This document shows, in pieces, positions 30,992-44,540 of a DNA stretch of 64,000 nucleotides. The DNA lies in contig NZ_ATMR01000128.1 of the NCBI RefSeq assembly GCF_000427335.1, positions 124,001-188,000 on the forward strand, read 5' to 3'. This DNA is from Winogradskyella psychrotolerans RS-3. Its GTDB lineage: Bacteria > Bacteroidota > Bacteroidia > Flavobacteriales > Flavobacteriaceae. The stretch's first letter is position 1, and each line of letters begins with the position of its first letter. A program made the translations under genes and the position numbers. The notes below the pieces were generated by a model. That model saw nothing but the letters and a program-made list of their open reading frames with translations, did no database searches and had not been told where the DNA came from.

Positions 30992-31621
30992 TTACTTGTC
31001 ACGTAAAAAAGTGCTCACTTCAATAGCAACATCTTCCCATGTTTTACTCACACCATCAGCACCTTTATGCAGATCAAAACATACTTTATTTAAAGATTCT
31101 AATGCACCCAATGCGTCCCAATCTTTAAGATCCATGGTGCCTTTCATACTTACACGTCTTTCATCTGTAATGTTAACGTCTAATGGTAAGTCTTTAGTCA
31201 CTCCATTCATTGTAATTTCAGCAGAGTAGGCGTTGTTAGCATATTTAATTTTACCTTTTAATAATTCAGGATCTAACATCGCTCCAAAAAACGAAGCCTT
31301 TAACTTTTCATCTCTAGTCTCATCTTTAGTAAATAAACTACTTACCGGAATTGAAAATTCTAAATTATTTAAAGCTTCTTCTGGCGTTGCACCTGCTTTT
31401 TCTTCAAAATTTAGCGTTGCAAATTCTCCACCTACTGGTACTTTGTCGGTGGTTTTATAAGCCGTCCATTTTACATTGGTTGCTTCAGGTTTAACAACAT
31501 AGGAAATAGTGTTTTCAATGGTTTCAGTAGTTGTAGTCTCTTCTGCCTTTTTATCGTCTTTACAAGATGTGAAAACTAAACAAACAATAACTAATAGTGA
31601 TAAGAATTTTATGCTTTTCAT
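30992..31621 (-). CDS. YceI family lipoprotein
   Basis: A 209-residue lipoprotein (signal MKSIKFLSLLVIVCLVFTSC, lipobox FTSC). The mature part has a YceI lipocalin-like beta-barrel: YVVKPEATNVKWTAYKTTDKVPVGG...LEFSIPVSSLFT...SAEITMNGVTKDLPLDVNI. YceI proteins bind long isoprenoids such as polyprenyl pyrophosphate and are often induced by base or oxidative stress. It follows the sigma/SodC genes on the same strand. Confidence 0.88.
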   Translation of the reverse strand: MKSIKFLSLLVIVCLVFTSCKDDKKAEETTTTETIENTISYVVKPEATNVKWTAYKTTDKVPVGGEFATLNFEEKAGATPEEALNNLEFSIPVSSLFTKDETRDEKLKASFFGAMLDPELLKGKIKYANNAYSAEITMNGVTKDLPLDVNITDERRVSMKGTMDLKDWDALGALESLNKVCFDLHKGADGVSKTWEDVAIEVSTFLRDK

Positions 31622-31705: not shown

Positions 31706-31719
31706 ATGATAAAAATCAT
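31706..31719. promoter_or_regulatory. FNR-type box upstream of hemN
   Basis: ATGATAAAAATCAT is a perfect FNR-like palindrome. A -7 box TAATTTTG lies at 31742-31749, exactly 22 bp after the palindrome. The box centre is therefore about -40 from the expected start, the classical activating position of FNR (class II). Confidence 0.8.
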
Positions 31720-31766
31720 ATTTTAAGAGTTGGCTTACTAGTAATTTTGACTATGAATTTAAAGCT

Positions 31767-33131
31767 ATGAGTCAATCGTTAATTACAAAATATAATGTTT
31801 CAGGTCCTCGTTATACGAGTTATCCAACGGTTCCGTATTGGGATTTGGACTCCTTTTCTTTAGCCCAATGGAAAACGTCTTTAAAACGTGCTTTTAACGA
31901 AAGTAATACATCTGAAGGCTTAAGTTTATACATTCATTTACCATTTTGCGAAAGCTTATGTACGTTTTGTGGTTGCCATAAACGCATTACAAAACGGCAC
32001 GAAGTAGAGTCTCCATACATTAAAGCGGTATTAAAAGAATGGGGTCTGTACTTGGATTTATTAGGAAGCAAACCAAAGATTAAAGAATTACATCTTGGTG
32101 GAGGTACACCTACATTTTTTTCGCCAGAACATCTTCATTATTTAATTTCTGAATTATTAAAGGATGCAGAATTGGCAACAGATTATGAGTTTAGTTTTGA
32201 AGGTCATCCAAACAATACCACAGAAGCACATTTACAAACCTTATATGATTTAGGATTTAGACGTGTCAGTTATGGCGTTCAGGATTATAATCTCAGTATC
32301 CAAAAAGCCATCAATCGTGTTCAACCTTTTGAAAACGTAAAACGTGCGACAGACTTAGCGCGTAAAATCGGTTATACCTCTGTCGGACATGATATTATTT
32401 TCGGATTACCATTTCAAACCGAAACCGATGTTATTGAAACCATCAATAAAACGAAGTCTTTAATGCCAGACCGTATTGCATTTTATAGCTATGCGCATGT
32501 GCCTTGGATAAAAGGAAATGGTCAGCGTGGTTTTAGCGACGCAGATTTACCAACACCAGATTCTAAGCGTCAGCAATACGAAACAGGAAAACAGCATTTT
32601 GAAGCTGCAGGTTATGTAGAAATAGGCATGGATCATTTTGCCTTAAAAACGGATTCACTTTATAAAGCGATGGAAAATGAAACCTTACATCGCAATTTCA
32701 TGGGGTATACTGCTTCTAAAACACAAGCTATGATTGGTTTGGGAGTGTCGTCTATTAGTGATAGTTGGTATGGTTTTGCTCAAAATGTAAAATCGAATGA
32801 AGAGTACTACCATTTGTTAGAGCACAATATTATTCCGGTGTTTAAAGGTCATATTCTAAATGCCGAAGATTTGGCGATTAGAAAACACATCCTTAACCTT
32901 ATGTGTAATTTTAAAACGGATTGGGAGGATGACACCTTAGAATTTGAAGAATTACCAGAAGTGCTCATAAAATTAAAAGAGTTTGAATTGGATGGTTTAC
33001 TTCAGTTTGAATATAAACAAGTCATTGTAACCGAGAAAGGAAAAGCTTTTATAAGAAATATATGTATGGCTTTCGATTTGTTATTACAACGCAAAAAACC
33101 GGAAACTCAGTTGTTTTCAATGACTATTTAA
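31767..33131 (+). CDS. hemN: Oxygen-independent coproporphyrinogen III oxidase
   Basis: A 454-residue radical-SAM enzyme. The 4Fe-4S motif is FCESLCTFCGCHK (CxxxCxxC) near residue 61, followed by the SAM-binding GGGTPTF and HemN motifs (SFEGHPNNTT, GIDHFAL-like GMDHFAL). It decarboxylates coproporphyrinogen III to protoporphyrinogen IX without O2, in heme synthesis. The FNR box at 31706 predicts low-oxygen induction, matching the neighbouring cbb3 oxidase that needs extra heme. Confidence 0.96.
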   Translation: MSQSLITKYNVSGPRYTSYPTVPYWDLDSFSLAQWKTSLKRAFNESNTSEGLSLYIHLPFCESLCTFCGCHKRITKRHEVESPYIKAVLKEWGLYLDLLGSKPKIKELHLGGGTPTFFSPEHLHYLISELLKDAELATDYEFSFEGHPNNTTEAHLQTLYDLGFRRVSYGVQDYNLSIQKAINRVQPFENVKRATDLARKIGYTSVGHDIIFGLPFQTETDVIETINKTKSLMPDRIAFYSYAHVPWIKGNGQRGFSDADLPTPDSKRQQYETGKQHFEAAGYVEIGMDHFALKTDSLYKAMENETLHRNFMGYTASKTQAMIGLGVSSISDSWYGFAQNVKSNEEYYHLLEHNIIPVFKGHILNAEDLAIRKHILNLMCNFKTDWEDDTLEFEELPEVLIKLKEFELDGLLQFEYKQVIVTEKGKAFIRNICMAFDLLLQRKKPETQLFSMTI

Positions 33132-33187
33132 TATAAAAAAAATGAAACACGCCTATTCAAAATTTAATCGCCTTAAGGGCTAATTAA

Positions 33188-33231
33188 TAGCGAACAGCAT
33201 GTGACAATTAAAAAATAATAAATAAAAACTC
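33188..33231 (+). promoter_or_regulatory. 44-bp leader shared with the vWA gene, copy 1
   Basis: The 44 bp directly before the uspA ATG starts TAGCGAACAGCATGTGACAA and matches 44909-44952 base for base except seven substitutions, with no gap. The last ~20 bp are A-rich, as in Bacteroidota ribosome-binding regions; the first ~25 bp carry the distinctive GCGAAC-n-GCATGTG-n-CA. Confidence 0.75.
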
Positions 33232-34065
33232 ATGAAAAAAATAATTGTACCAGTAGATTTTTCAGAACATTCCGAATTTGCGCTCGAAGCTGCGGCCAGC
33301 TTAGCCCAAAAGTATGGATCTGAACTTATTGTATTACACATGTTAGAGTTGTCTAATGCAATTATTTCGACTGCAAGCGAAGCTTTAAATCAAGAAGCTG
33401 TTTTTTATTTAAAACTTGCTGAGCAAAAATTTGAAAGCTTCTTAGATAAACCCTATTTAGAAGGCCTTAAGCTAACACCAATTGTGAAACATTTTAAAGT
33501 GTGGAGCGAAGTGAATTTGGTGGCTACAGAACATCATGCAGATTTAATAATTATGGGCTCTCAAGGAGCTAGTGGGATTAAAGAAGTGCTTGTAGGTTCT
33601 AACACAGAAAAAGTAGTACGCCATTCTGAAATCCCTGTTTTAGTCATTAAACATAATCCGATTTTAATGGATTTTGAAAATGCTGTTTTTGCTTGTGATT
33701 TTTCTGAAGAAACTGTGGCGCCTTACTTAAAAGCAAAAGAGATTTTCAACTTGCTTGGTACAAAATTACACTTGGTATATGTGAATTCACCTGATGGGAA
33801 TTTTAAAAGTTCTTCTGAAATAGATAAACGTGTGTCTGATTTCTTAGGAAAAGCAGAAGGGAATTTAGACAACTTAAACCAAGTTAATATTGTGTCAGAT
33901 TATTCTATAGAAAAAGGGATTCTTAATTTTGCTAATGTTATTGGTGCAGATCTAATTGCGGTGGCAACACATGGTAGAAAAGGTTTATCGCATATATTTG
34001 AAGGTAGTGTTTCTGAAGATATTGCAAACCATTCGACCTTACCAGTCATGACATTTAAAATATAA
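33232..34065 (+). CDS. Universal stress protein, two UspA domains
   Basis: A 277-residue cytoplasmic protein with two tandem UspA folds (~1-142 and ~145-277). Domain 1 has the full ATP loop GSQGASGIKEVLVGS (G-2x-G-9x-G-S). In domain 2 the first Gly is replaced by Ala (ATHGRKGLSHIFEGS). Such dimeric-tandem Usp proteins respond to oxygen limitation and stationary phase. It lies between hemN and the cbb3 operon and shares its leader with the vWA gene at 44953. Confidence 0.93.
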   Translation: MKKIIVPVDFSEHSEFALEAAASLAQKYGSELIVLHMLELSNAIISTASEALNQEAVFYLKLAEQKFESFLDKPYLEGLKLTPIVKHFKVWSEVNLVATEHHADLIIMGSQGASGIKEVLVGSNTEKVVRHSEIPVLVIKHNPILMDFENAVFACDFSEETVAPYLKAKEIFNLLGTKLHLVYVNSPDGNFKSSSEIDKRVSDFLGKAEGNLDNLNQVNIVSDYSIEKGILNFANVIGADLIAVATHGRKGLSHIFEGSVSEDIANHSTLPVMTFKI

Positions 34066-34109
34066 CTGATGATGTTATTATAATAGTTAGTGTTATTAAT
34101 CATCGTCCT

Positions 34110-34145
34110 AAAAACGCCATCGATTCTCTCTTTGGCGTTTTTTTA
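34110..34145 (+). terminator. Rho-independent terminator after uspA
   Basis: AAAACGCCA, an ATCGATTCTCTCTT loop, then TGGCGTTTTTTTAT; stem of 9 bp and a T run, 45 bp after the uspA stop. Confidence 0.82.
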
Positions 34146-34232
34146 TTTACATGATGTTTTAAACTCGATACTTTAGTAGTCGTAGAAAAACGAGACAAGA
34201 AAGGAGCCCAACTGAAATAATTAAGAGACTAG

Positions 34233-34274
34233 AAAAAAAAGACTTAAAATTCTCATTATGAAGTTTAAGTCTTC
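34233..34274 (-). terminator. Rho-independent terminator of the 34280 gene
   Basis: On the minus strand AAGACTTAAA pairs with TTTAAGTCTT around an AT-rich loop and is followed by eight T; it starts 6 bp after the stop of the barrel protein gene. Confidence 0.82.
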
Positions 34275-34279
34275 TTCTG

Positions 34280-34843
34280 CTAAAAACGATAGCCAAGTCT
34301 TAAATGTAGATTTAATGCGAAATCATTCTTATTGTTTATATAGACATTTTTTTCTTTAATATAATGTATGTATCCTATTCCGATGCCTGTTTCATAAGTG
34401 AAATGCTTACCAACATTACGTCTAATTCCCCAAGTTGGTGTGATGGAAATATCACTAATAAAATTAATGTTATCAGCGAAAGAGCCTATTACGATATCGG
34501 GATGGTAGGTGGTTTTTATTGAAATAAAATTACCACTGTTTCCATCTATGCGTCGCGATTTAGAAACTCTTTTGTTAAGATTGTAATACCAACGTGGTTC
34601 TAATGTAATTGCAGGAACCAGAATAAAGCCACGGCTACCGACAAAGCTGTTGCTGAACAAGCCTGCGTCCAATCCAAGCTCACTTCGTAATGCTATGGAG
34701 TTTGAGAGTTTAGATTCATTGTGTCCCCAAATACCAAGAAAACCAGTTTGTAGGCCGTAAGTGGATTCTTCTACACTAGCATCTTGTGCGGTTAATGTTG
34801 TAATTGAGAGACTGAAAATGAATAAAAAGAATAGATTTTTCAT
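34280..34843 (-). CDS. Outer membrane beta-barrel protein, unknown
   Basis: A 187-residue protein with a signal peptide (MKNLFFLFIFSLSITTLTAQ) and amphipathic beta strands through the chain (LQTGFLGIWGHNES, GFILVPAITLEPRWYYNL, ISDISITPTWGIRRNV, HFTYETGIGIGYIHYI), ending in LHLRLGYRF, a C-terminal Phe as in barrel proteins. About eight strands. The function is not known. It lies after the cbb3 operon end but has its own terminator. Confidence 0.78.
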   Translation of the reverse strand: MKNLFFLFIFSLSITTLTAQDASVEESTYGLQTGFLGIWGHNESKLSNSIALRSELGLDAGLFSNSFVGSRGFILVPAITLEPRWYYNLNKRVSKSRRIDGNSGNFISIKTTYHPDIVIGSFADNINFISDISITPTWGIRRNVGKHFTYETGIGIGYIHYIKEKNVYINNKNDFALNLHLRLGYRF

Positions 34844-34925
34844 GTTTTTGATGGATTGATGATGTTGATTTATAGAGAGCTAATATATGAATTATCATTC
34901 CACGTTGTAAGAATTTATTTGTGTA

Positions 34926-35627
34926 TTAATGGCATTCTATAGCACTAACGGCTGTTTCTATGATTGGAGCAGGAGAGAGGTATGGAATTCCGAGACCTAA
35001 TCCACGAAGAATAAATAATAAACCAATAACCACCACAAAAACAGGAATCGCTTTTTGTATGCGTTGTTTAATGGTTGAATTTAGAAATTTTCCTAAATAG
35101 ATAGCTGTGGTCATTAAGGGGATTGTACCAAGTCCAAATAATACCATATATAAACTGCCCTCTAATAAACTGCCAGTAGCAACAGCTCCAAATACAGCCA
35201 TATAGACTAAACCACAAGGTAGAAACCCGTTGAGAAAACCAATAGTTAAAAATGTATCTGCAGTTTTCTTTTTTAAGGCTTTTCCTAAAGATGTTTTTAC
35301 TTTAGAAATACCTTTGTAAAGAGGTTTTGAAAGGTTGTATTTGCCAATAATTTTATGAGGAAGAAGAATCACAACAATCATTATTACACCTATGATTATT
35401 GAGAGTTGTTGTTGAATACCAAAAATATAAAGACTTTTTCCAACGAGTCCAAACACCAAACCGATAATGCTATAAGCCAATAACCGACCAAAGTGGTATA
35501 GGCTAATCTGACTTACTTTTCTAAACGAGTTAGACCGATCTACAGGGAGCATAAAGGCAATTGGTCCACACATACCAACACAGTGCAAACTACCTAATAA
35601 ACCTAGTATGAGCGCCGAGACTAACAT
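34926..35627 (-). CDS. SafE/TauE-type membrane protein of the cbb3 operon
   Basis: A 233-residue protein with six helices of the sulfite exporter TauE/SafE, UreH-like type. Near the N-terminus SLHCVGMCGPIAF holds the HCxGMCGP motif that suggests metal or thiol handling, and a second half repeats it as GFLNGFLPCGLVYMA. In Bacteroidota cco operons this gene follows ccoH and probably helps oxidase assembly, perhaps copper delivery (inference). It starts 1 bp after the ccoH stop. Confidence 0.85.
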   Translation of the reverse strand: MLVSALILGLLGSLHCVGMCGPIAFMLPVDRSNSFRKVSQISLYHFGRLLAYSIIGLVFGLVGKSLYIFGIQQQLSIIIGVIMIVVILLPHKIIGKYNLSKPLYKGISKVKTSLGKALKKKTADTFLTIGFLNGFLPCGLVYMAVFGAVATGSLLEGSLYMVLFGLGTIPLMTTAIYLGKFLNSTIKQRIQKAIPVFVVVIGLLFILRGLGLGIPYLSPAPIIETAVSAIECH

Positions 35628-36074
35628 CTAATATATGATTTCGGTTTTATAGATATAAGAATTTGTGTTATATTTCCAATCTACAGTAATGTTCCAACGA
35701 CCACCTAATAAACGTTTGTCAGGTATGAGCAAATTTTGGTTTGATAGAGAAATTGGAATTTCAAAATCAAATTGTTTATCAGATGGTCTGTATAGGAACA
35801 CTTTTCCTTCAATTTTATTGATATCTATATCTTCAGGAAAAATGAGGTTAACACCTTCGTCACTCTTTTTCCAAGTAATATTCGTTTTTAATGTTTTAGA
35901 ATGTTGTTCTTTATTTAAATCCTCTTGAAACTCTAGTTCTTGACCATAATAGTCTTCTGTTACTAAATCAAAATCATACTTATCATCTGTACTCATTGTA
36001 ATAATAAAGTACATGATAAAGCTCATGAAAGCTATAAACGCGATTACAATACCTGTTCCCCAATTTATTTTCAT
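35628..36074 (-). CDS. ccoH: FixH/CcoH-like cbb3 assembly protein
   Basis: A 148-residue protein with one N-terminal helix (GTGIVIAFIAFMSFIMYFII) and a periplasmic beta domain: YDFDLVTEDYYGQELEFQEDLNKEQ, INLIFP-type strand, and GGRWNITVDWKYNTNSYIYKTEI at the end. This is the FixH pattern. FixH/CcoH stabilises the early cbb3 subcomplex. It follows ccoG after a 296 bp repeat-bearing gap. Confidence 0.88.
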   Translation of the reverse strand: MKINWGTGIVIAFIAFMSFIMYFIITMSTDDKYDFDLVTEDYYGQELEFQEDLNKEQHSKTLKTNITWKKSDEGVNLIFPEDIDINKIEGKVFLYRPSDKQFDFEIPISLSNQNLLIPDKRLLGGRWNITVDWKYNTNSYIYKTEIIY

Positions 36075-36077
36075 AAT

Positions 36078-36350
36078 TCAACTTCCTGCGAAAGCAGGAA
36101 TCTCTTTTTAGTTAATATACTTCCTGCTATGGCAAGAATCTTTATTTTTTCATGCCTACAAGGTTTTAGAAACCTTGCAGGGTTAATCAATTGAGAACTG
36201 CTAGGTTTTTATTACACTTCCTGTAAAGGAAAGTATCTTCCGGTTTTTTTAACCAGCAAAGTTTTAAAAAAAACCTAAAGTCCCTTCAAGGGAACACTAC
36301 TCATAACTAATTACGCTTATGCAACACCTAACTAACGTCGTGCTTCCAAC
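36078..36350. repeat. Cluster of REP-like hairpins inside the cco operon
   Basis: The 296 bp between ccoG and ccoH have no gene but several hairpins: TTCCTGC-GAAA-GCAGGAA (36083-36100), CAAGGTTT-TAG-AAACCTTG (36159-36177), and looser copies CTTCCTGCTATGGCAAG and CTTCCTGTAAAGGAAAG. The first recurs in diverged form at 48894-48911. Confidence 0.65.
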
Positions 36351-36370
36351 TTCTCACTTCTAGCTCTTTT

Positions 36371-37795
36371 TTAATTATAACTCCGAGGTCCTAAAAAGTT
36401 AACTGCTGTGGTCTCAATTAATTCATCCTTACTATAAACCTCAATGATTAATTTTATTCTATCGTCGGACAATTCACTTTTATTAATTTCAATAAATAAA
36501 GTGCCTTGTTCTAATTCTTGAGCAGGAACTTTAAAATTTTCAGTTGTTGAAACCATTTTAATAGTGCCTTTAAATTTTCTAAGTTTAAAACTAATGTTAT
36601 TGATGTCTTTTGTGGTTTTATTCACTAATTTGTATGTAAATACATTACTTATCATGTTATTTTCTTTGGTCTCGTAAAGTTGACCAGGAAGCCTAAGTAT
36701 AGTCGCTTCAACATCATTTCTAAGAAAGAGTAAGCCAATAAAAATACCAGTTAGAATAGATAAAACGGCTATATAGCCTTTCATTCTGGGAGTTATTTTG
36801 AACTTCTTTTTTCTTTCAATTTCATCTTCACTCGCAAATCTAATCAACCCTTTAGGAAGATTGATGCTTTCCATAATATGATCGCACTCATCAATACAAG
36901 CCGTACAATTTACACATTCTAATTGTGTTCCGTTTCTAATATCTATACCTGTTGGACAGACATTAACACATTGTAAACAATCAATACAATCTCCATGACC
37001 TAAAGCGTCTCGATCTTCATTTTTTCTGAATTTCTTTCTGCCATTTTCCGCTTCTCCACGTTTATGATCGTAAGCAACAACTATAGACTTATCATCTAAT
37101 AATACACTTTGCAGTCTGCCATAAGGACAAGCTATAATACAGACTTGTTCTCTAAACCATGCAAACACAAAATAGAATACCGCTGTAAAAATAATCAGAG
37201 GAAAAAGTGTTCCTACATGATCTAATGGATTACCAGTGATGTATTTTATTAGTTTATCACTTCCAATTAAATAGGCTAAAAACACGTTTGCAATTAAAAA
37301 CGAAATGATTAAAAAGATAAACCACTTAAATCCTTTCTTTCTAATTTTCTCCGCATTCCACTCTTGCTTATCTAATTTTCGTTGTTTATTTCTGTCACCT
37401 TCAATCCAATATTCAATACGTCTAAAAACCATTTCCATAAAAATGGTTTGTGGACAAATCCAACCACAAAACACACGACCAAAACTGACCGTAAATAGAG
37501 CGATAAATACAATACCAATAAGCATTGATATCACCACTAGATAAAAATCTTGAGGCCAAAACGGTAAGCCAAAGACATTAAAGCGACGCTCTAAAATGTT
37601 GAATAATAAAAATTGGTTGCCATTTATTTTTATAAATGGAGCAGCGAGTAAGAAGATGAGTAAACCATAACTTACAAACTTGCGATATTTATAAAGCTTG
37701 CCACTTGGTTTTTTGGGATATACCCATGCGCGTTTACCATCTTCGGTTACTGTACCTATCGTATCTCTAAATGATTCGTGTTCTGATGGTTCCAA
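36371..37795 (-). CDS. ccoG: Cytochrome c oxidase accessory protein CcoG (RdxA/FixG)
   Basis: A 474-residue membrane Fe-S protein: six helices, the CGWICPQTIFMEMVFRRIEYWIEG motif, CIIACPYGRLQSVL, and two ferredoxin-like clusters CIDCLQCVNVCPTGID and CVNCTACIDECD. The C-terminal ~130 residues are a periplasmic Ig-like domain. CcoG reduces Cu(II) to Cu(I) for insertion into the cbb3 active site. It lies 16 bp after ccoP. Confidence 0.95.
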   Translation of the reverse strand: MEPSEHESFRDTIGTVTEDGKRAWVYPKKPSGKLYKYRKFVSYGLLIFLLAAPFIKINGNQFLLFNILERRFNVFGLPFWPQDFYLVVISMLIGIVFIALFTVSFGRVFCGWICPQTIFMEMVFRRIEYWIEGDRNKQRKLDKQEWNAEKIRKKGFKWFIFLIISFLIANVFLAYLIGSDKLIKYITGNPLDHVGTLFPLIIFTAVFYFVFAWFREQVCIIACPYGRLQSVLLDDKSIVVAYDHKRGEAENGRKKFRKNEDRDALGHGDCIDCLQCVNVCPTGIDIRNGTQLECVNCTACIDECDHIMESINLPKGLIRFASEDEIERKKKFKITPRMKGYIAVLSILTGIFIGLLFLRNDVEATILRLPGQLYETKENNMISNVFTYKLVNKTTKDINNISFKLRKFKGTIKMVSTTENFKVPAQELEQGTLFIEINKSELSDDRIKLIIEVYSKDELIETTAVNFLGPRSYN

Positions 37796-37811
37796 TTTTT
37801 ATTTGATTTTA

Positions 37812-38699
37812 TTAGTCTATTGATTCTTCTTTCCAAACATCGCCTTCGGCTGGTTTAGGTTGTGCAGGTGTTGTACCTTGAAATTGTAAAACATAACTCG
37901 CTACTTGTGCTATTTCAGCAGGTTTTAAGCTCTGTTTCCAGGCAATCATACCTTTTCCATCTCTACCACCTTCTGATACGGTTTTAAATACGTTTTTAAT
38001 ACCACCACCTAAAATCCAATGTGTATCGGTTAGGTTTGGTCCAATTCCACCACCACCATCAGCTTGGTGACAAGCAATACAATTTACTTCGAAAATTTTC
38101 TTACCGTTATTTAAATCTGAAGCTTCAGTTAATAATTCAACAGTATTAAAATCGACAAGATCTTTTGCTGTTCTCTTGTATTCTTCAATAGCTATTTTGG
38201 CTTCAGCATATTCTGTGTCTAGTTCATCAAATTGACTATCGCCATCAAATACTTCATATTTAAATAAATAGATTACAGCAAAAATGATAGACGCATAAAA
38301 CCCATACAACCACCATGGTGGTAAGTCATTATCTAATTCTTTAATACCATCATAATTATGGTCTAGAATAATTTCATGTTCTTCTTGTATCGGTTTTGAT
38401 CCTAGTAATTTGATATATTTCTCTTTTATCCAAACGACTAGTTTTGATTCTTTTTGATTACTAGCGTCATAACGTGCCTTACCAGCGTCGTCTAAACTTT
38501 GATAAAGAATATTAGATAGAGAACCTGCAATAGCTTCAATAGCTATTAATACTAAGAGTACTAATAATAGAAACAATAGTATGGCGGGTTGCTCCATAAA
38601 TGCTGGCTGGTCGCCAGATTCTACAAAATATTCTATTAGTAAGACAATGATGAAAAATACAACAGGTATTCTTAACCAAGATGGAATAGTGTTTCTCAT
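37812..38699 (-). CDS. ccoP: cbb3 oxidase cytochrome c subunit CcoP, monoheme
   Basis: A 295-residue protein. Two helices near the N-terminus (LRIPVVFFIIVLLIEYFV, ILLFLLLVLLVLIAIEAI), then LPPWWLYGFYASIIFAVIYL with the FixP N-terminal signature, then one cytochrome c domain with C-I-A-C-H near residue 208 and a later GKGMIAWKQSL giving the Met ligand. Proteobacterial CcoP has two CxxCH; here there is only one. It donates electrons to CcoO. Its start overlaps ccoQ by 4 bases. Confidence 0.94.
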   Translation of the reverse strand: MRNTIPSWLRIPVVFFIIVLLIEYFVESGDQPAFMEQPAILLFLLLVLLVLIAIEAIAGSLSNILYQSLDDAGKARYDASNQKESKLVVWIKEKYIKLLGSKPIQEEHEIILDHNYDGIKELDNDLPPWWLYGFYASIIFAVIYLFKYEVFDGDSQFDELDTEYAEAKIAIEEYKRTAKDLVDFNTVELLTEASDLNNGKKIFEVNCIACHQADGGGGIGPNLTDTHWILGGGIKNVFKTVSEGGRDGKGMIAWKQSLKPAEIAQVASYVLQFQGTTPAQPKPAEGDVWKEESID

Positions 38700-38887
38700 A
38701 GTTCTGTTTCGTTTTGGTTATCTAATTCTAATGGTAAATTGCTGACGCGAGTAATATATTCTTTTTTTGCTGTGAAAACCCACCAAAATAGGATTACAAA
38801 AAAGCTAAAAAAGATAATTAAGGATATAATTGGGTAGATTTCTATTCCAGAAATACTATCCATATGATTTTTTACAAATTTTAGCAT
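38696..38887 (-). CDS. ccoQ: cbb3 oxidase subunit CcoQ/FixQ
   Basis: A 63-residue single-helix protein (IEIYPIISLIIFFSFFVILFWWVFT) followed by KKEYITRVSNLPLELDN, the FixQ pattern. It stabilises the oxidase complex. It lies 4 bp after ccoNO and overlaps ccoP. Confidence 0.9.
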   Translation of the reverse strand: MLKFVKNHMDSISGIEIYPIISLIIFFSFFVILFWWVFTAKKEYITRVSNLPLELDNQNETEL

Positions 38888-38891
38888 AATA

Positions 38892-41108
38892 CTAGTTTTG
38901 AGTGGTTTCTAAATCTTTTACTTTTATATCAGTTCCTAATCGTTGTAGGTAAGCAATTAATGCTGTGATTTCACGATTCTTAACTTCAATGAATTTTTTA
39001 CCAGTGGCTTCAGCTTCTTTTTTACCAGCTGCAAATGATGTCGATAAATCAGAATCTTCATATAAGTTTTGTTCAATTTCAGATCCTTGCTTTAGCATGT
39101 GTTGTTGCGCATTTGCAATGTCTTCATCTGTATATGGAACTCCAAGTGCTACCATGGTTTTCATTTTGGCTTCAGTTTGAGATTTATCTAATTCATCTCT
39201 AATTAACCATTGGTATGCTGGCATAATCGATCCACTTGAAACACCTTGAGGATCATACATGTGCTTAAAGTGCCATGAATCTGGTCGTCCACCTGTCATT
39301 TTTCCTCCAACACCTTCTCTGGCTAAATCCGGACCAGTACGCTTACTTCCCCAAAGGAAAGGGTGATCGTATACAAATTCTCCGGCTTTAGAATATTCAC
39401 CATAACGTTCTACTTCACTTCTAAACGGACGAATCATTTGTGAGTGACAGCCCACACAACCTTCTCTAATGTAAATATCTCGACCTTCTAATTCTAAAGG
39501 CGTATAAGGTTTTACGCTAGACAATGTTGGGATATTAGATTTTATCATAATTGTTGGAACAATCTGAACGATACCTCCAATTAATATCGCTATTGTAGCG
39601 AAGATGGTTAGTTTTATTGGTTTACGTTCTAATACAGAATGCCAACCTTCTCCAGCAGTTCTGTGTTTTGAAACACGTTGTAAAGCTGGTGCTTCTGCTA
39701 ATTCGTCTTCTACAGCGCTTCCTTGTCTTATGGTAACAAAAACGTTATATATAAGTATTAACATACCGGTTATGTATAGCGTTCCTCCAATAGCACGCAT
39801 CCAATACATTGGCATAATCTCAGTAACTGTCTCTAAAAAGTTACCGTATTTTAATGTCCCATCTGGATTAAATTGCTTCCACATACTTGCTTGAGTAAAT
39901 CCTGCAACATATAATGGTAAGGTATAGAATATGATACCTAAAGTTCCTATCCAAAAGTGGGCATTTGCTAATTTGGTTGAGTATAATTTAGTTTTTACTA
40001 ATCTCGGAATTAACCAATAGATCATACCAAAGGCTAAAAAGCCATTCCATGCTAAAGCACCAACGTGTACGTGTGCAATAATCCAATCTGTAAAGTGACC
40101 AATGGCATTAACGTTTTTAAGTGATAAAAGAGGGCCTTCAAAAGTAGCCATACCATAACCTGTAAGTGCTACTACCATAAATTTTAAAACAGGGTCAGTA
40201 CGTACTTTATCCCATGCACCACGCAAGGTTAAAAGTCCGTTGATCATACCACCCCAAGATGGCATTAATAACATTACAGAAAAGGCAACACCTAAGTTTT
40301 GAGCCCATTCTGGTAAAGCAGTATATAATAAATGGTGAGGTCCTGCCCAGATATAAATAAATATTAAAGACCAAAAGTGAATGATAGATAGTCTATAAGA
40401 ATATACAGGTCTATTAGCAGCCTTAGGTACAAAATAGTACATCAATCCTAAAAACGGTGTTGTTAAAAAGAAAGCAACGGCATTATGTCCATACCACCAT
40501 TGTACTAAGGCATCTTGCACACCAGCGTAAACAGAATAACTCTTCATGCCTGTTAAGCTTACAGGAAGTGATAAACTATTAAATATATGAAGTACGGCAA
40601 CCGTAACAAATGTTGCTAAGTAAAACCATATAGCAACATACATATGGCGTTGACGACGTTTTAAGATGGTACCGATTAAGTTCCAACCAAAAACAACCCA
40701 TACCACAGCAATAGCAATATCAATAGGCCATTCTAGTTCGGCATATTCTTTAGAAGATGTGTAACCTAAAGGTAATGTAATAGCCGCAGAGACAATAATA
40801 GCTTGCCAACCCCAAAAATTAATTTTACTTAAGGTGTCGTTAAACATTCTAGCTTTTAGTAATCGTTGTGAGGAGTAGTAAACACCAGCAAATATGGCAT
40901 TACCTACAAAGGCAAAAATAACAGCATTGGTATGTAATGGTCTTAATCTACCAAAACTAAGCCATGAAACACCATCGGTTAGATTTGGGAAAACGAACAT
41001 AAATGCTAGTAATAATCCTACCAACATGCCTATTACACCCCAAAATATAGTGGCATAAAGGAAATTTTTAACGATTTTGTTATCGTAATAAAATTGTTGT
41101 ACATCCAT
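38892..41108 (-). CDS. ccoN: Fused CcoN-CcoO cbb3 cytochrome c oxidase
   Basis: A 738-residue fusion. Residues ~1-480 are the 12-helix CcoN catalytic subunit with the heme/CuB His motifs (LRPLHTNAVIFAFVGN, QWWYGHNAVAFFLT, HVHVGALAWNGF). After a linker, from ~500, comes CcoO with one helix (IFATIAILIGGIVQIVPTI) and the heme c site GCVGCHSQMIRPF near 551. The enzyme reduces O2 with high affinity at the inner membrane and pumps protons. The fusion is a known Bacteroidota feature. It lies 5 bp after ccoS. Confidence 0.97.
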   Translation of the reverse strand: MDVQQFYYDNKIVKNFLYATIFWGVIGMLVGLLLAFMFVFPNLTDGVSWLSFGRLRPLHTNAVIFAFVGNAIFAGVYYSSQRLLKARMFNDTLSKINFWGWQAIIVSAAITLPLGYTSSKEYAELEWPIDIAIAVVWVVFGWNLIGTILKRRQRHMYVAIWFYLATFVTVAVLHIFNSLSLPVSLTGMKSYSVYAGVQDALVQWWYGHNAVAFFLTTPFLGLMYYFVPKAANRPVYSYRLSIIHFWSLIFIYIWAGPHHLLYTALPEWAQNLGVAFSVMLLMPSWGGMINGLLTLRGAWDKVRTDPVLKFMVVALTGYGMATFEGPLLSLKNVNAIGHFTDWIIAHVHVGALAWNGFLAFGMIYWLIPRLVKTKLYSTKLANAHFWIGTLGIIFYTLPLYVAGFTQASMWKQFNPDGTLKYGNFLETVTEIMPMYWMRAIGGTLYITGMLILIYNVFVTIRQGSAVEDELAEAPALQRVSKHRTAGEGWHSVLERKPIKLTIFATIAILIGGIVQIVPTIMIKSNIPTLSSVKPYTPLELEGRDIYIREGCVGCHSQMIRPFRSEVERYGEYSKAGEFVYDHPFLWGSKRTGPDLAREGVGGKMTGGRPDSWHFKHMYDPQGVSSGSIMPAYQWLIRDELDKSQTEAKMKTMVALGVPYTDEDIANAQQHMLKQGSEIEQNLYEDSDLSTSFAAGKKEAEATGKKFIEVKNREITALIAYLQRLGTDIKVKDLETTQN

Positions 41109-41113
41109 AATAA

Positions 41114-41302
41114 TTAATTGTTCTTAGTCGTTTTTATAGTTGGTTTTGGTTCTTCTTTTACGAGTTCGTCTTCAAAAAGCATACGAACGGATGGAGTATA
41201 GTCGTCATCGTATTGCCCGGACTTTACTGCCATTATAAAAAAGACAAAGAAAATCACGCCAATAACAACGCTAACTGATAATAAAATATAAATAACACTC
41301 AT
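41114..41302 (-). CDS. ccoS: cbb3 oxidase assembly protein CcoS
   Basis: A 62-residue protein: one helix (MSVIYILLSVSVVIGVIFFVFFIMAVKSGQ) then GQYDDDYTPSVRMLFED, the CcoS signature. CcoS is needed for cofactor insertion into the oxidase. First gene of the FNR-controlled structural operon. Confidence 0.94.
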   Translation of the reverse strand: MSVIYILLSVSVVIGVIFFVFFIMAVKSGQYDDDYTPSVRMLFEDELVKEEPKPTIKTTKNN

Positions 41303-41351
41303 ACCTACTGAAGTTATGGCTCAAAAGTAATATTGAAGCCGGTTTGAAAAT

Positions 41352-41365
41352 ATGATAAAAATCAT
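41352..41365. promoter_or_regulatory. FNR-type box upstream of ccoS
   Basis: ATGATAAAAATCAT, identical to the hemN box. On the minus strand a -7 box TACTTTTG lies at 41322-41329, again 22 bp away. The box falls between ccoI and ccoS, so the structural genes have their own promoter. Confidence 0.82.
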
Positions 41366-41381
41366 GTTTCCTTATTTTTAA

Positions 41382-43772
41382 TCATTCTAACCGCTTTCCT
41401 AAAAGATTTGTAGCAATTGTTGTAAATATAACAATACTAATAGAGCTTAGAGGCATTAATATTGCTGCAATTACGGGTTCTAATTGTCCGGTTGTAGCAA
41501 AGTATAATCCAATAACATTGTAAAAAAATGATAATACAAAGCTCCACTTAATAATTTTTATGGCTGATTTAGACGCGGAAATAAATTGATATAATTGCTT
41601 AAACTTTGAAGCATCTAAAATAGCATCGCAAGCAGGAGAGAAGACGTTTACATCTTCAGATATCACTATACCTACATTGCTTTGTGCTAAAGCACCAGCA
41701 TCATTTAATCCGTCTCCGATCATTAATACTTTGGCTCCTTCAGATTGATGGTATTTAATAAACTCTAATTTATCTTCTGGTTTTTGGTTGAAAATTAATT
41801 TGGTTTTGGCCGGCAATAATTTTTTTAAATTTTCAAGCTCTCCTTCATTATCCCCCGAAAGAATAACCAAATCAAAATGCTTTTTTAGTTGATTAAATAG
41901 TTTTGAAACTCCTTTTCTATAGCTGTTATAAAAGGTGAATTTTCCTTTATAGACATTATTACTACTGACATGAACTGTAGTGTTAAGCAAAGTGCTAGTG
42001 TTGGGACTTCCAACAAAAGTAGCAGAACCAATCTTCATATTAACAGCATCGTGTTTGGCTTCAATGCCTTTGCCAATGTGTTCTTCAAAAGTATCAAGTG
42101 TAATGATATTATGTTCTTCTAAAATAGTATATAATGTTCTACTTAACGGGTGATTAGAACCTCTGAGTGAATTTTTAAGAACTATATTTTCAGAATCTGA
42201 AAGCAAATCACCATCATATTCTGCATTACTATCTTTATTAGACGTAATGGTTCCTGTTTTATCAAAAATCACCGTGTTTATTTCAGCCAATTGTTCAATA
42301 ACAGTAGCGTTTTTTACATAGAATTTTTGTTTGCCAAAGATTCTCAATAAGTTCCCAAAGGTAAAAGGAGCAGACAGTGCAATCGCGCAAGGACAAGCAA
42401 TTATCAATACAGCAGTAAATACATTCATCGCTTTACTAGAATCTACAAACAGCCAAAATGTAGTAGCGATAAAAGCAACAGCTAATATGGCAATGGTGAA
42501 GTGTTTACTAATGGTATTCGTAATATTGGTAAAACCGTCTTCTTTGTTTTTATTGAAAACATCATTACTCCATAATTGTGTGAGATAACTCTGCTCAACA
42601 GACTTTAGAGCTTCCATTTCAATAACACCATTGGTTTGTTTACCACCAGCAAATAATTTGTCTCCAGATTGTTTAGAGACCGTTTGCGATTCTCCCGTTA
42701 CAAAACTGTAATCTATTTTTGCTTTTCCATTGATTAAAATACCATCAACAGGAATTAATTCTTCATTCCGAATTAAAAGGCGATCACCTTTTTCGATATC
42801 GTAAACTTGAATGGAATTTTCGTTCCCTGATTTATCAATTTTGGTAATGGCAATCGGAAAGTATGATTTATAGTCGCGCTCAAAGGATAAGAAATTATAT
42901 GTTTTTTGCTGGAAGAACTTTCCGGTTAATAGAAAGAATATTAAACCAGCCAAACTATCAAAAAAGCCAGAGCCTAAATCGAACATAATTTCAATAGTAC
43001 TCCTAATAAAGAGCACAGAAACTCCAAGTGCGATTGGGACATCAATATTTAAAATTTTAGCCTTTAGACCTTTATATGCCGAAATGAAATAATCTTGAGC
43101 AGAATAAAAAACAATGGGTAAAGACATGGCAAACATTAGCCATCTAAAGAGCGGTTTGTATTGCTCTAACCAAAACTCGTTGACTTCAAAATACTCTGGA
43201 AAAGACAAAAACATAATATTACCAAATCCAAAAGCGGCAACGCCAAGTTTATAGATTAAACTTCGGTTAACATCCTTTTTACCAGAGTTAAAATCTTCTA
43301 AACTAATATAAGGTTCGTAACCAATAGCGCTTAATAGTAATACCACTGATTTTAAATTGGTAGTTTCAGAATTGTAAGTAACTCTTACCGTTTTTTTACC
43401 AAAATTGACTTGAGAATCTGAAATGCCTGGATTAAGCTTGTTTAAATTTTCGAGAATCCAAATGCAAGAACTGCAATGAATATGGGGAATGTAAAGCGTG
43501 GCAATCTCTAAAGCACCATCTTTAAACTCCGTGAGTTTTTCAATAATGTTTTCCTGAGAAAGAAAATCATATTTGCCTTCTATTTCCTTTGGAGTAGCTC
43601 CAGGGGAATTTTGTAAATCGTAATAACAAGTTAAATCGTTCTCATTAAAAATCTCGAAAACAGTTTTACAACCGTTACAACAAAAAGACTTTTCTTGAAA
43701 AGAAATAACATGATTACCACAGTTGTCACCACAGTGAAAACACGTTGCGTTTTCCATTTTTAATTTGCTCAA
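41382..43772 (-). CDS. ccoI: Copper-translocating P1B ATPase CcoI (FixI)
   Basis: A 796-residue ATPase. The N-terminus has a Cys-rich DUF2396 metal domain (CFHCGDNCGNH...CCNGCKTVFE) and then an HMA-type CSSC (~100). Later come the actuator TGES, the CPC ion motif CPCAIALSAP near 460, the phosphorylation site DKTGT near 504 and GDGLNDAGAL. It exports copper to the periplasm for cbb3 assembly. It has its own FNR-box promoter in the divergent region with the fnr gene. Confidence 0.95.
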   Translation of the reverse strand: MSKLKMENATCFHCGDNCGNHVISFQEKSFCCNGCKTVFEIFNENDLTCYYDLQNSPGATPKEIEGKYDFLSQENIIEKLTEFKDGALEIATLYIPHIHCSSCIWILENLNKLNPGISDSQVNFGKKTVRVTYNSETTNLKSVVLLLSAIGYEPYISLEDFNSGKKDVNRSLIYKLGVAAFGFGNIMFLSFPEYFEVNEFWLEQYKPLFRWLMFAMSLPIVFYSAQDYFISAYKGLKAKILNIDVPIALGVSVLFIRSTIEIMFDLGSGFFDSLAGLIFFLLTGKFFQQKTYNFLSFERDYKSYFPIAITKIDKSGNENSIQVYDIEKGDRLLIRNEELIPVDGILINGKAKIDYSFVTGESQTVSKQSGDKLFAGGKQTNGVIEMEALKSVEQSYLTQLWSNDVFNKNKEDGFTNITNTISKHFTIAILAVAFIATTFWLFVDSSKAMNVFTAVLIIACPCAIALSAPFTFGNLLRIFGKQKFYVKNATVIEQLAEINTVIFDKTGTITSNKDSNAEYDGDLLSDSENIVLKNSLRGSNHPLSRTLYTILEEHNIITLDTFEEHIGKGIEAKHDAVNMKIGSATFVGSPNTSTLLNTTVHVSSNNVYKGKFTFYNSYRKGVSKLFNQLKKHFDLVILSGDNEGELENLKKLLPAKTKLIFNQKPEDKLEFIKYHQSEGAKVLMIGDGLNDAGALAQSNVGIVISEDVNVFSPACDAILDASKFKQLYQFISASKSAIKIIKWSFVLSFFYNVIGLYFATTGQLEPVIAAILMPLSSISIVIFTTIATNLLGKRLE

Positions 43773-43814
43773 TTATACCTGTAACAAAAGTCATTAAACA
43801 GGTGCGTATATACT

Positions 43815-43828
43815 ATGATATTTATCAT
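43815..43828. promoter_or_regulatory. FNR-type box between ccoI and the fnr gene
   Basis: ATGATATTTATCAT. Towards ccoI (minus) a -7-like box GACTTTTG lies at 43785-43792, 22 bp away. Towards fnr (plus) the -7 box TAACTTTG is at 43837-43844, only 8 bp away, so the same palindrome would cover the -33 region of fnr. Confidence 0.82.
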
Positions 43829-43862
43829 GTTTTAATTAACTTTGAATTTAATAGTTTTTGTT

Positions 43863-44540
43863 ATGATGAAATGCGAACAATGTATCGTTAAACAATTTAA
43901 TGCTTTAAAATCTTTAGAGAAAGATGATTTGATTCGTATCTCTGGTTGTAAGACTTCTAAATTCATAAAAAAAGGTGAAATTTTATTTAGAGAAGGTGAA
44001 AGTATTAACGGTGTCTACTGCATTAAAGAAGGAGTTTGTAAGTTAACAAAGTTGAGTGCTAACGGCAAAGACCAAATTGTGAAACTTGTGGTGAGAGGTG
44101 ATTTATTAGGCCAACGTTCATTAGTTACCGATGAAAAATCTAACCTTACCGCTATCGCAGTAAATGAAATGGAAATTTGTTTTATTCCTAAAAGCGAAAT
44201 TTTACATGATTTATCAAAAAACGCCAATTTTTCTTTAGATATGCTTCAAGACATGGCTAAAGAACTTAGGATTGCGGATAATATCATTGTAGATATGGCT
44301 CAGAAATCTGTAAAACAACGTTTAGCAGATGTGCTTATTTATTTAGATCAGGCCTTTGATAAAGATGAGAGAGGTTATGTTGGTGTTATGTTATCTAGAG
44401 AAGATTACGCAAATCTTGTAGGAACAGCAACTGAATCTGCCATCAGAATTTTATCGCAATTTAAAAAAGAAGGATATATTTCTACCACAGGAAAACATAT
44501 AAAGATTATTGATTTGGAAGGTTTGAAACGTATTGAATAA
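43863..44540 (+). CDS. Crp/Fnr family transcriptional regulator (FNR-type)
   Basis: I start at ATG 43863; an in-frame TTG at 43842 overlaps the promoter. About 225 residues: MMKCEQCIV with a CxxC near the N-terminus, cyclic-nucleotide-fold FKKGEILFREGESINGVYCIKEGVCKL (approximate), and a C-terminal HTH ending SREDYANLVGTATESAIRILSQFKKEGYI, whose E-S-x-x-R recognition helix is FNR-like. Only a CxxC plus a later Cys in SGC and YC are visible, so a full 4Fe-4S site is possible, not proven. It probably activates ccoS, ccoI and hemN. Confidence 0.9.
   Translation: MMKCEQCIVKQFNALKSLEKDDLIRISGCKTSKFIKKGEILFREGESINGVYCIKEGVCKLTKLSANGKDQIVKLVVRGDLLGQRSLVTDEKSNLTAIAVNEMEICFIPKSEILHDLSKNANFSLDMLQDMAKELRIADNIIVDMAQKSVKQRLADVLIYLDQAFDKDERGYVGVMLSREDYANLVGTATESAIRILSQFKKEGYISTTGKHIKIIDLEGLKRIE

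Follow-up and report, generated by a model that had tools for sequence, protein, structure and literature searches.

Proteins of the Crp/Fnr family classically activate class II promoters from a position at –41.5, and the recognition helix of FNR reads E--SR; its cysteines Cys20, Cys23, Cys29 and Cys122 are given in E. coli numbering. The genes of cbb3 oxidase, like hemN and nirK, typically serve at low oxygen. The receiver protein FixJ of rhizobia is separate from the Crp/Fnr activator FixK, and the sigma-A promoter of Bacteroidota carries a –33 element. Here we describe a palindromic box, ATGAT-N4-ATCAT, that stands at a fixed distance from the –7 element TAnnTTTG in a 64,000-nucleotide stretch of Winogradskyella psychrotolerans RS-3 (contig NZ_ATMR01000128.1, positions 124,001 to 188,000; hereafter the window), at genes of cbb3 oxidase and haem synthesis and beside an fnr-like gene. 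It was reported for Flavobacterium psychrophilum that the cbb3 oxidase is strongly induced, and haem-synthesis enzymes are induced, at oxygen limitation; the words Fnr and Crp are absent from the main text of that study (PMC9723704). The three-Cys cluster loop of FNR lies at 17–29, and Bacillus-type Fnr carries its cluster in the C-terminal domain, so that ligands vary among Fnr proteins (PMC12937710). The rhizobial pathway runs from the haem-PAS kinase FixL through the receiver FxkR and the Crp/Fnr activator FixK to fixNOQP (PMC7888657). Flavobacterial homologues treated in PMC8510549 were assumed there to sense carbon, not oxygen. Among the titles and opening lines of abstracts listed by text searches of a mostly open-access literature there was no Bacteroidota report of the box, of an iron-sulfur (Fe-S) Fnr or of an oxygen pathway through receiver-CRP (REC-CRP) fusions, which leaves their absence from the literature unproven.

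It was found that three exact boxes of the window each lie exactly 22 base pairs (bp) from a TAnnTTTG-like –7 element. The first, ATGATAAAAATCAT (31706..31719, plus strand), has its predicted centre at about –41.5 and is followed after 22 bp by TAATTTTG (31742..31749, plus) and by hemN (31767..33131, plus), an oxygen-independent coproporphyrinogen III oxidase gene (TIGR00538, 424.4 bits against a cut-off of 324.95). The second (41352..41365, minus), with the –7 element TACTTTTG (41322..41329, minus), belongs to the promoter of ccoS and ccoNO; ccoS (41114..41302, minus; TIGR00847, 42.4 bits, cut-off 28.35) is the first gene of the cbb3 oxidase cluster. The third, ATGATAAATATCAT as read on the minus strand (43815..43828), has its –7 element GACTTTTG at 43785..43792 (minus) before a P-type ATPase gene (41382..43772, minus), and it also faces the divergent fnr-like gene (43866..44540, plus). 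The ATPase was taken as ccoI by type and position; it scored 171.4 bits against the 62.3 cut-off of TIGR01494, and its higher scores with TIGR01525 (324.9) and TIGR01511 (297.3) are yet under the cut-offs of those models. An earlier note on this DNA had described these three spacings correctly to the base, and had placed the box centres near –40, a value to be changed to –41.5. In the start-site study of F. psychrophilum the register of TAnnTTTG is –12 to –5 (PMC9723704), so that with 22 bp in between the 14-bp box covers –48 to –35, its centre at –41.5. By this register and spacing the box has the predicted geometry of a class II operator. A T-rich tract at –33 to –30 follows the box. With at most one mismatch, the palindrome occurred at 13 sites in the window against 5.07 expected; the fourth exact copy (24598) lies inside an open reading frame (ORF) and has no –7 element at 22 bp. 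A scan for sigma-70 promoters was uninformative (71 found, 60.6 expected).

The same layout was observed at orthologous promoters. The loci (L numbers; G and C numbers denote genomes and contigs) came from one CcoN-O protein search, the best 80 of at least 590 matches, chosen without regard to the box, and a site was counted when a box TGAY-N4-RTCA accompanied a –7 element with at most one mismatch. The loci L029–L078, L080, L087 and the window are called flavobacterial (L097 too in the counts of orthologous promoters and bases) and the rest other, a split made by CcoN identity and record titles; the other group includes a few records titled Flavobacteriales or Flavobacteriaceae (L085; L097 in the 44-bp and 50-genome scans; L104 and L106 where present) and some that by title lie outside Bacteroidota proper (L094, L102, L107). 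With the window included, the box stood at exactly 22 bp in 48 of 53 flavobacterial ccoS promoters (at 21 bp in two and 23 bp in one), in 17 of 21 hemN promoters and in 36 of 46 ccoI promoters (at 21 bp in three and 23 bp in two). It was missing at 21–23 bp from ccoS in L032 and L068, and from ccoI in L058, L066, L068, L080 and L097. Upstream of ccoG, a weak control because the gene may lie inside an operon, no box at 22 bp was seen among the 52 flavobacterial orthologues and one among the 25 others. The histogram of relaxed-box spacings at 81 cco loci peaked at 22 bp (77 sites), with 10 sites at 8, 8 at 9, 10 at 44 and 5 at 21 bp. Two Lutibacter loci (L070, L072) had 21 bp at both ccoS and ccoI, a parallel one-base shift in one genus. 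The first base of the –7 element was T in all 58 hemN and ccoS sites (17 of 17 for hemN) and in 6 of 41 ccoI sites (Fisher 6e-21, with counts that depend on one another as the species are related); by its sequence the ccoI promoter looks as if it were kept weak. An apparent loss of the ccoS box from the Maribacter/Arenibacter group was rejected, the box being present and the –7 element ending in A instead of G.

In the genome of the strain (G000; 4.34 megabases, 219 contigs) the exact palindrome occurred 25 times against 16 for a reversed-pattern control, and seven copies were intergenic. Four of these seven showed the 22-bp spacing, namely those of hemN, ccoS and ccoI and one (G000:C98:124270) before a gene (L015) whose product resembles copper nitrite reductase and has a cytochrome c domain, called nirK here. 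The nirK-like frame looks split into a short ORF resembling a lipoprotein signal and a 432-residue ORF in a different frame (L015 1542–3003, G000:C98), either by an error of the draft sequence or by a real break. The other three (L018 3001 at G000:C126:81949; L007 1501 and L008 1501 on G000:C81) have no –7 element at 22 bp and are possibly repressor sites or chance occurrences. When a relaxed box, 22 bp and NAnnTTTG were required together, 17 matches were obtained against one in the control, 16 of them before ORFs. Behind these sites were found hemN, ccoS, ccoI and nirK, two universal stress proteins, a YceI protein, a ferritin/Dps-like protein, a pyridine-nucleotide oxidoreductase, a DHBP synthase of the ribB type, a triosephosphate isomerase, an amino-acid permease, a further P-type ATPase, a PLDc_N protein and two proteins without a Pfam match; ten of the 16 were checked by Pfam, and one universal stress protein and the non-cco ATPase were named by inspection. 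At some of the sites the start codon was uncertain or up to 235 bases from the –7 element, so not all 16 need be real. The window has a YceI-like ORF of its own (30992–31621, by inspection), divergent to hemN, which received no box in the genome scan; the YceI gene with a box at 22 bp lies elsewhere (L110).

The pattern also recurred far beyond this genome. Box, 22 bp and TAnnTTTG were found together 264 times in 25 flavobacterial genomes, or about ten times per genome, against 7 reversed controls, and 106 times against 5 in 25 other genomes. In 198 genomes of the class, a set that overlaps in part with these 50, there were 667 matches, compared with 17 of the reversed pattern, and 158 genomes had at least one. 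Viral contigs gave 78 pattern matches, none of which was confirmed as a Fnr relative. In one genome (G068 C1:1468513-1468586) a single palindrome has TAnnTTTG at 22 bp on either side, a candidate for a divergent promoter pair under a single operator.

A second spacing was observed in the other group, where box, 44 bp and TAnnTTTG occurred 50 times against 8 controls in the 25 genomes; in the 25 flavobacterial genomes the count with exact TAnnTTTG was 21 against 11 (p 0.11). At ccoS a 44-bp box was present in 7 of 24 other loci (L082, L084, L089, L090, L093, L095, L101), and in six of these seven the 22-bp position also held at least seven of eight letters; the reading of the 44-bp box as a class I site was dropped for one of tandem boxes on this ground. 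It thus seems, from the sequences, that several non-flavobacterial lineages kept the class II site and added a second box exactly 22 bp upstream. The outer box was the better match in several of these tandem promoters. Counts of 44- and 45-bp spacings obtained for flavobacterial ccoS genes were rejected as mostly an artefact, since the start-codon context TAGGTATG passes as a –7 element with one mismatch.

The fnr-like gene beside ccoI encodes a protein with a cyclic nucleotide-binding (cNMP) fold and a Crp-type helix-turn-helix (HTH): PF00027 and PF13545 were both over their cut-offs. Its AlphaFold2 (AF2) model (mean predicted local distance difference test score, pLDDT, 91.3) was most similar in the PDB to 2GAU and other Crp/Fnr proteins, FNR structures among them, with a template modelling (TM) score of 0.84 to Aliivibrio fischeri FNR. 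The protein has the cysteines C3, C6, C52 and C105, as well as C28 and C58, which are less conserved and present in about half of the aligned proteins. In 40 aligned orthologues C6, C52 and C105 were invariant (C52 in 40 of 40) and C3 nearly so, the sole exception being L097, for which the chosen start codon may be wrong. While C3, C6 and C105 align with Cys20, Cys23 and Cys122 of FNR, the equivalent of Cys29 is absent (Asn in the window protein) and FNR has a residue other than Cys at the position of C52, so the protein departs from the pattern of three N-terminal cysteines plus Cys122 that marks Gram-negative Fe-S FNR. Of the six REC-CRP fusions in the same alignment one carries Cys at 105, and in none is position 3, 6 or 52 a Cys. 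In the model, C52 lies in strand 49–55 and C105 in strand 102–108, presumably neighbours in the jelly roll, and we infer an Fe-S cluster held by C3, C6, C52 and C105. The recognition helix is TATESAIR in the window protein and TATES-x-IR in flavobacterial proteins, thus differing from the E--SR of Gram-negative FNR; at the position of the FNR Ser, I was found in 44 of 46 aligned proteins (six REC-CRPs among them) and S in two. The best NCBIfam match, PRK11161, gave 92.8 bits and did not reach the cut-off of 228. By ligands, helix and score the protein is thus no canonical FNR, but it may well have an FNR-like function.

The –7 element of the fnr-like gene itself, TAACTTTG (43837..43844, plus), is 8 bp from the ccoI box, whose centre then falls at about –27.5, and this arrangement suggests autorepression of fnr from the ccoI box. 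Among 38 orthologous fnr promoters (that of L056 belongs to a REC-CRP) the box was 8, 9 or 10 bp from the –7 element in 18, 22 bp in 4, 33 bp in 3 and at other values in 3, and ten had none. The 22-bp spacing was that of L036, L039, L042 and L049, and in this group the sign of autoregulation may have changed, perhaps to self-activation.

Six HTH_Crp_2 proteins were found in the genome, namely the Fnr-like protein, three fusions carrying PF00072, PF00027 and PF13545 in one chain (L222 2496–5050, L223 5584–8298, L224 11060–12121), and two others with different helices. The helices of the fusions, TATETAIR, IATETLIR and IATETLIR, are nearly the TE--IR of the Fnr-like protein. Two of the three fusions follow a PAS kinase gene; for the third, on C81, no PAS kinase was found within the 17 kilobases (kb) examined. 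The latter lies in an island that holds three relaxed boxes and encodes a P-type ATPase and, by inspection, BON-like proteins. The first PAS domain of the two kinases matched the haem PAS domains of FixL and DosP (FixL 1d06, E 1.7e-13 and 5.1e-10), and from its sequence it appears to be of the haem type with a proximal His. Of the 23 loci that carry a full REC-CRP (several are copies of one gene), 11 had a FixL-like kinase nearby; for 11 of the other 12 the DNA available was 3–4 kb and maybe too short. Aligned to the first kinase of this genome, all 11 kinases had His at the haem-ligand position. The genomes without a site at 22 bp (L096, L098, L100, L105, L107) had other helices where these were readable, in a partial survey whose pattern missed several proteins.

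Taken together, these results probably reflect a system of class II activators in Bacteroidota that takes its input from two sensors, one of the Fe-S type and the other a haem kinase. The boxes would be operators of Crp/Fnr-type activators of one DNA-recognition class with the helix TE--IR. The activator at –41.5 would occupy the usual place of the –33 element of the sigma-A promoter and contact RNA polymerase in the class II manner, the 22 bp being a fixed length from operator to TAnnTTTG. The neighbouring Fnr-like protein would be the first candidate regulator of hemN, ccoS and ccoI in this genome, active at low oxygen by way of the putative cluster on C3, C6, C52 and C105; from the ccoI box it would also repress the gene that encodes it, which is divergent to ccoI. 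The REC-CRP fusions, driven by FixL-like haem-PAS kinases, may recognise this operator or one much like it, working alongside Fnr or, in other species, taking its place. In a fuller picture of a two-input switch, different from that of proteobacteria, an Fnr with a relocated cluster ligand and a FixL-FixJ-FixK pathway collapsed to a haem-PAS kinase and a receiver-CRP fusion would meet at a single class of operator, locked 22 bp from TAnnTTTG. The operator would stand alone in the flavobacterial group, and at ccoS of several other lineages it would be doubled, the two copies being 22 bp apart. This picture is offered tentatively, as slightly less likely than not.

The earlier note is, in retrospect, right in what it observed, and understated it: the palindrome is kept at orthologous promoters and class-wide, and the combination with the 22-bp spacing stands out in the genome scan. 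Its proposal of a small low-oxygen regulon was right in kind, given cbb3, hemN and nirK, and wrong in size, as the counts above of 16 sites before ORFs and about ten per flavobacterial genome indicate. The FNR-type neighbour is indeed a Crp/Fnr protein, though not a canonical FNR, and a candidate regulator, though not the sole one, with three fusions sharing its helix and eight genomes keeping the box with a REC-CRP as the only match (below); as to the regulator the note was incomplete.

Several observations weigh against this interpretation. The palindrome alone was rejected as evidence, because 18 of its 25 exact copies in the genome lie inside ORFs of at least 80 codons; by itself it is weak evidence, and together with the 22-bp spacing it is strong. 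All conservation counts depend on one another through the kinship of the species. No box was found at 21–23 bp from hemN in L041, L056, L058 and L060, the –7 element of ccoI is imperfect, and in Myroides (L068) neither ccoS nor ccoI has a box, in spite of an Fnr-like gene (E 1.2e-69). Conversely, L046, L080 and L082 keep the box though no regulator was found at E 1e-12 in these metagenome-assembled genomes (MAGs), which are possibly incomplete. E--IR helices with K, not T, before E occur in L092, L096, L100 and L105, which have no site or one, so the presence of the box cannot be predicted from E--IR alone. An extra N-terminal Cys 9–11 residues past the CxxC of L079, L089 and L142 could be a ligand there. 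Among the 11 kinases beside REC-CRP genes, the position of the FixL Arg (the distal Arg 220 of B. japonicum) was Arg in six, and M, M, I, T and L in the others.

The regulators could be apportioned differently, with REC-CRP proteins, not Fnr, as the main activators of cco and hemN, and with Fnr using the site mainly to control itself and ccoI. The similarity of the two kinds of helix would agree with this, as would the occurrence of a REC-CRP with a FixL-like kinase near cco in 7 of 80 loci (L034, L056, L083, L090, L093, L103, L108). In a search for Fnr in 48 genomes, from 50 of the 80 loci, eight flavobacterial genomes (L032, L037, L040, L053, L055, L056, L059, L076) had a match of REC-CRP length (348–385 residues) and none like the Fe-S Fnr; REC-CRP identity was confirmed in the loci of four and rests on length in four, and a Fnr may have been missed in L037, L055 and L076, which are MAGs. 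The box at 22 bp is retained in every one of the eight, before ccoI in L032 and before ccoS in the other seven. We nevertheless regard REC-CRP as main activator as unlikely, since an Fe-S-type fnr gene was found near cco in 37 of 54 flavobacterial loci (window included), often sharing the ccoI box, and since the sites on the REC-CRP contigs of this genome belong to stress and transport genes.

Far less probable is a classical FNR throughout, with a Cys20-Cys23-Cys29-Cys122 cluster and TTGAT-type sites. The fold, the similarity to A. fischeri FNR, the alignment of C3, C6 and C105 with three of the FNR ligands and PRK11161 as best match are what it would predict; the Asn at the Cys29 position, the invariant C52, the missing helix Ser and the score far under the cut-off are not. 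The outer box base at –48, moreover, was A in 75%, C in 23% and T in 2% of 48 distinct ccoS sites, T thus occurring in about one. It is hardly credible, finally, that the palindrome is a curvature or AT-rich upstream element of the promoter without a dedicated regulator. An AT-rich composition and neighbouring A and T tracts, both seen at these sites, would fit such an element, but when 29 alternative palindromes built from the letters of the half-site, and so of equal composition, were searched on both strands of the 81 cco loci, none of their 214 sites was at 22 bp, against 24 of 98 for ATGAT; and across the 50 genomes a spacing of 27 gave 21 matches (10 in controls) against 370 at 22.

Downstream of ccoS and in the same direction are further cco genes, all named by inspection: a ccoN-ccoO fusion of cbb3 oxidase (38892..41108, minus) with 80 relatives at 64–86% identity, a ccoP-like cytochrome c subunit with CxxCH (37812..38699, minus), and the ccoG-like gene (36371..37795, minus) whose upstream region served as control.

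Bacteroidota, whose promoter is unusual, abound in the sea, in soil and in the gut, and the text searches yielded little on how they regulate genes by oxygen. A fixed 22-bp rule would make low-oxygen regulons readable from sequence in this lineage and would define in concrete terms how an activator is placed at the TAnnTTTG promoter, and the sensor question becomes testable through a few gene deletions. The class-wide recurrence of the layout points to a widespread, uncharacterised oxygen-response switch.

Compared with described systems, the one proposed here resembles MalR/Cur and HcpR2, Crp/Fnr proteins of the same phylum with described motifs, although the HcpR2 motif GTAACnnnnGTTAC differs from the box (PMC8510549, PMC1274295). 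With FNR of E. coli and Aliivibrio it shares the Crp/Fnr fold, an N4-centred palindrome with a TGAT...ATCA core, a centre at –41.5 and low-oxygen genes as targets; it differs in the outer box base (A or C, not T), the TE--IR helix, an invariant C52 in place of a Cys29 equivalent and the Bacteroidota sigma-A element TAnnTTTG. Unlike in Bacillus-type Fnr, the candidate ligands (3, 6, 52, 105) lie in the N-terminal half. As in the rhizobial FixL-FixK pathway there are a FixL-type haem-PAS kinase, a receiver domain, a Crp/Fnr-type activator and a cbb3 oxidase target, but receiver and activator, separate in FixJ and FixK, are fused in one chain in three proteins of this genome. The –7 element TAnnTTTG, in the register –12 to –5 (PMC9723704), is that of the –33/–7 sigma-A promoter of Bacteroidota, whereas a Crp/Fnr box ending at –35 and a T-rich tract stand in the place of its –33 element.

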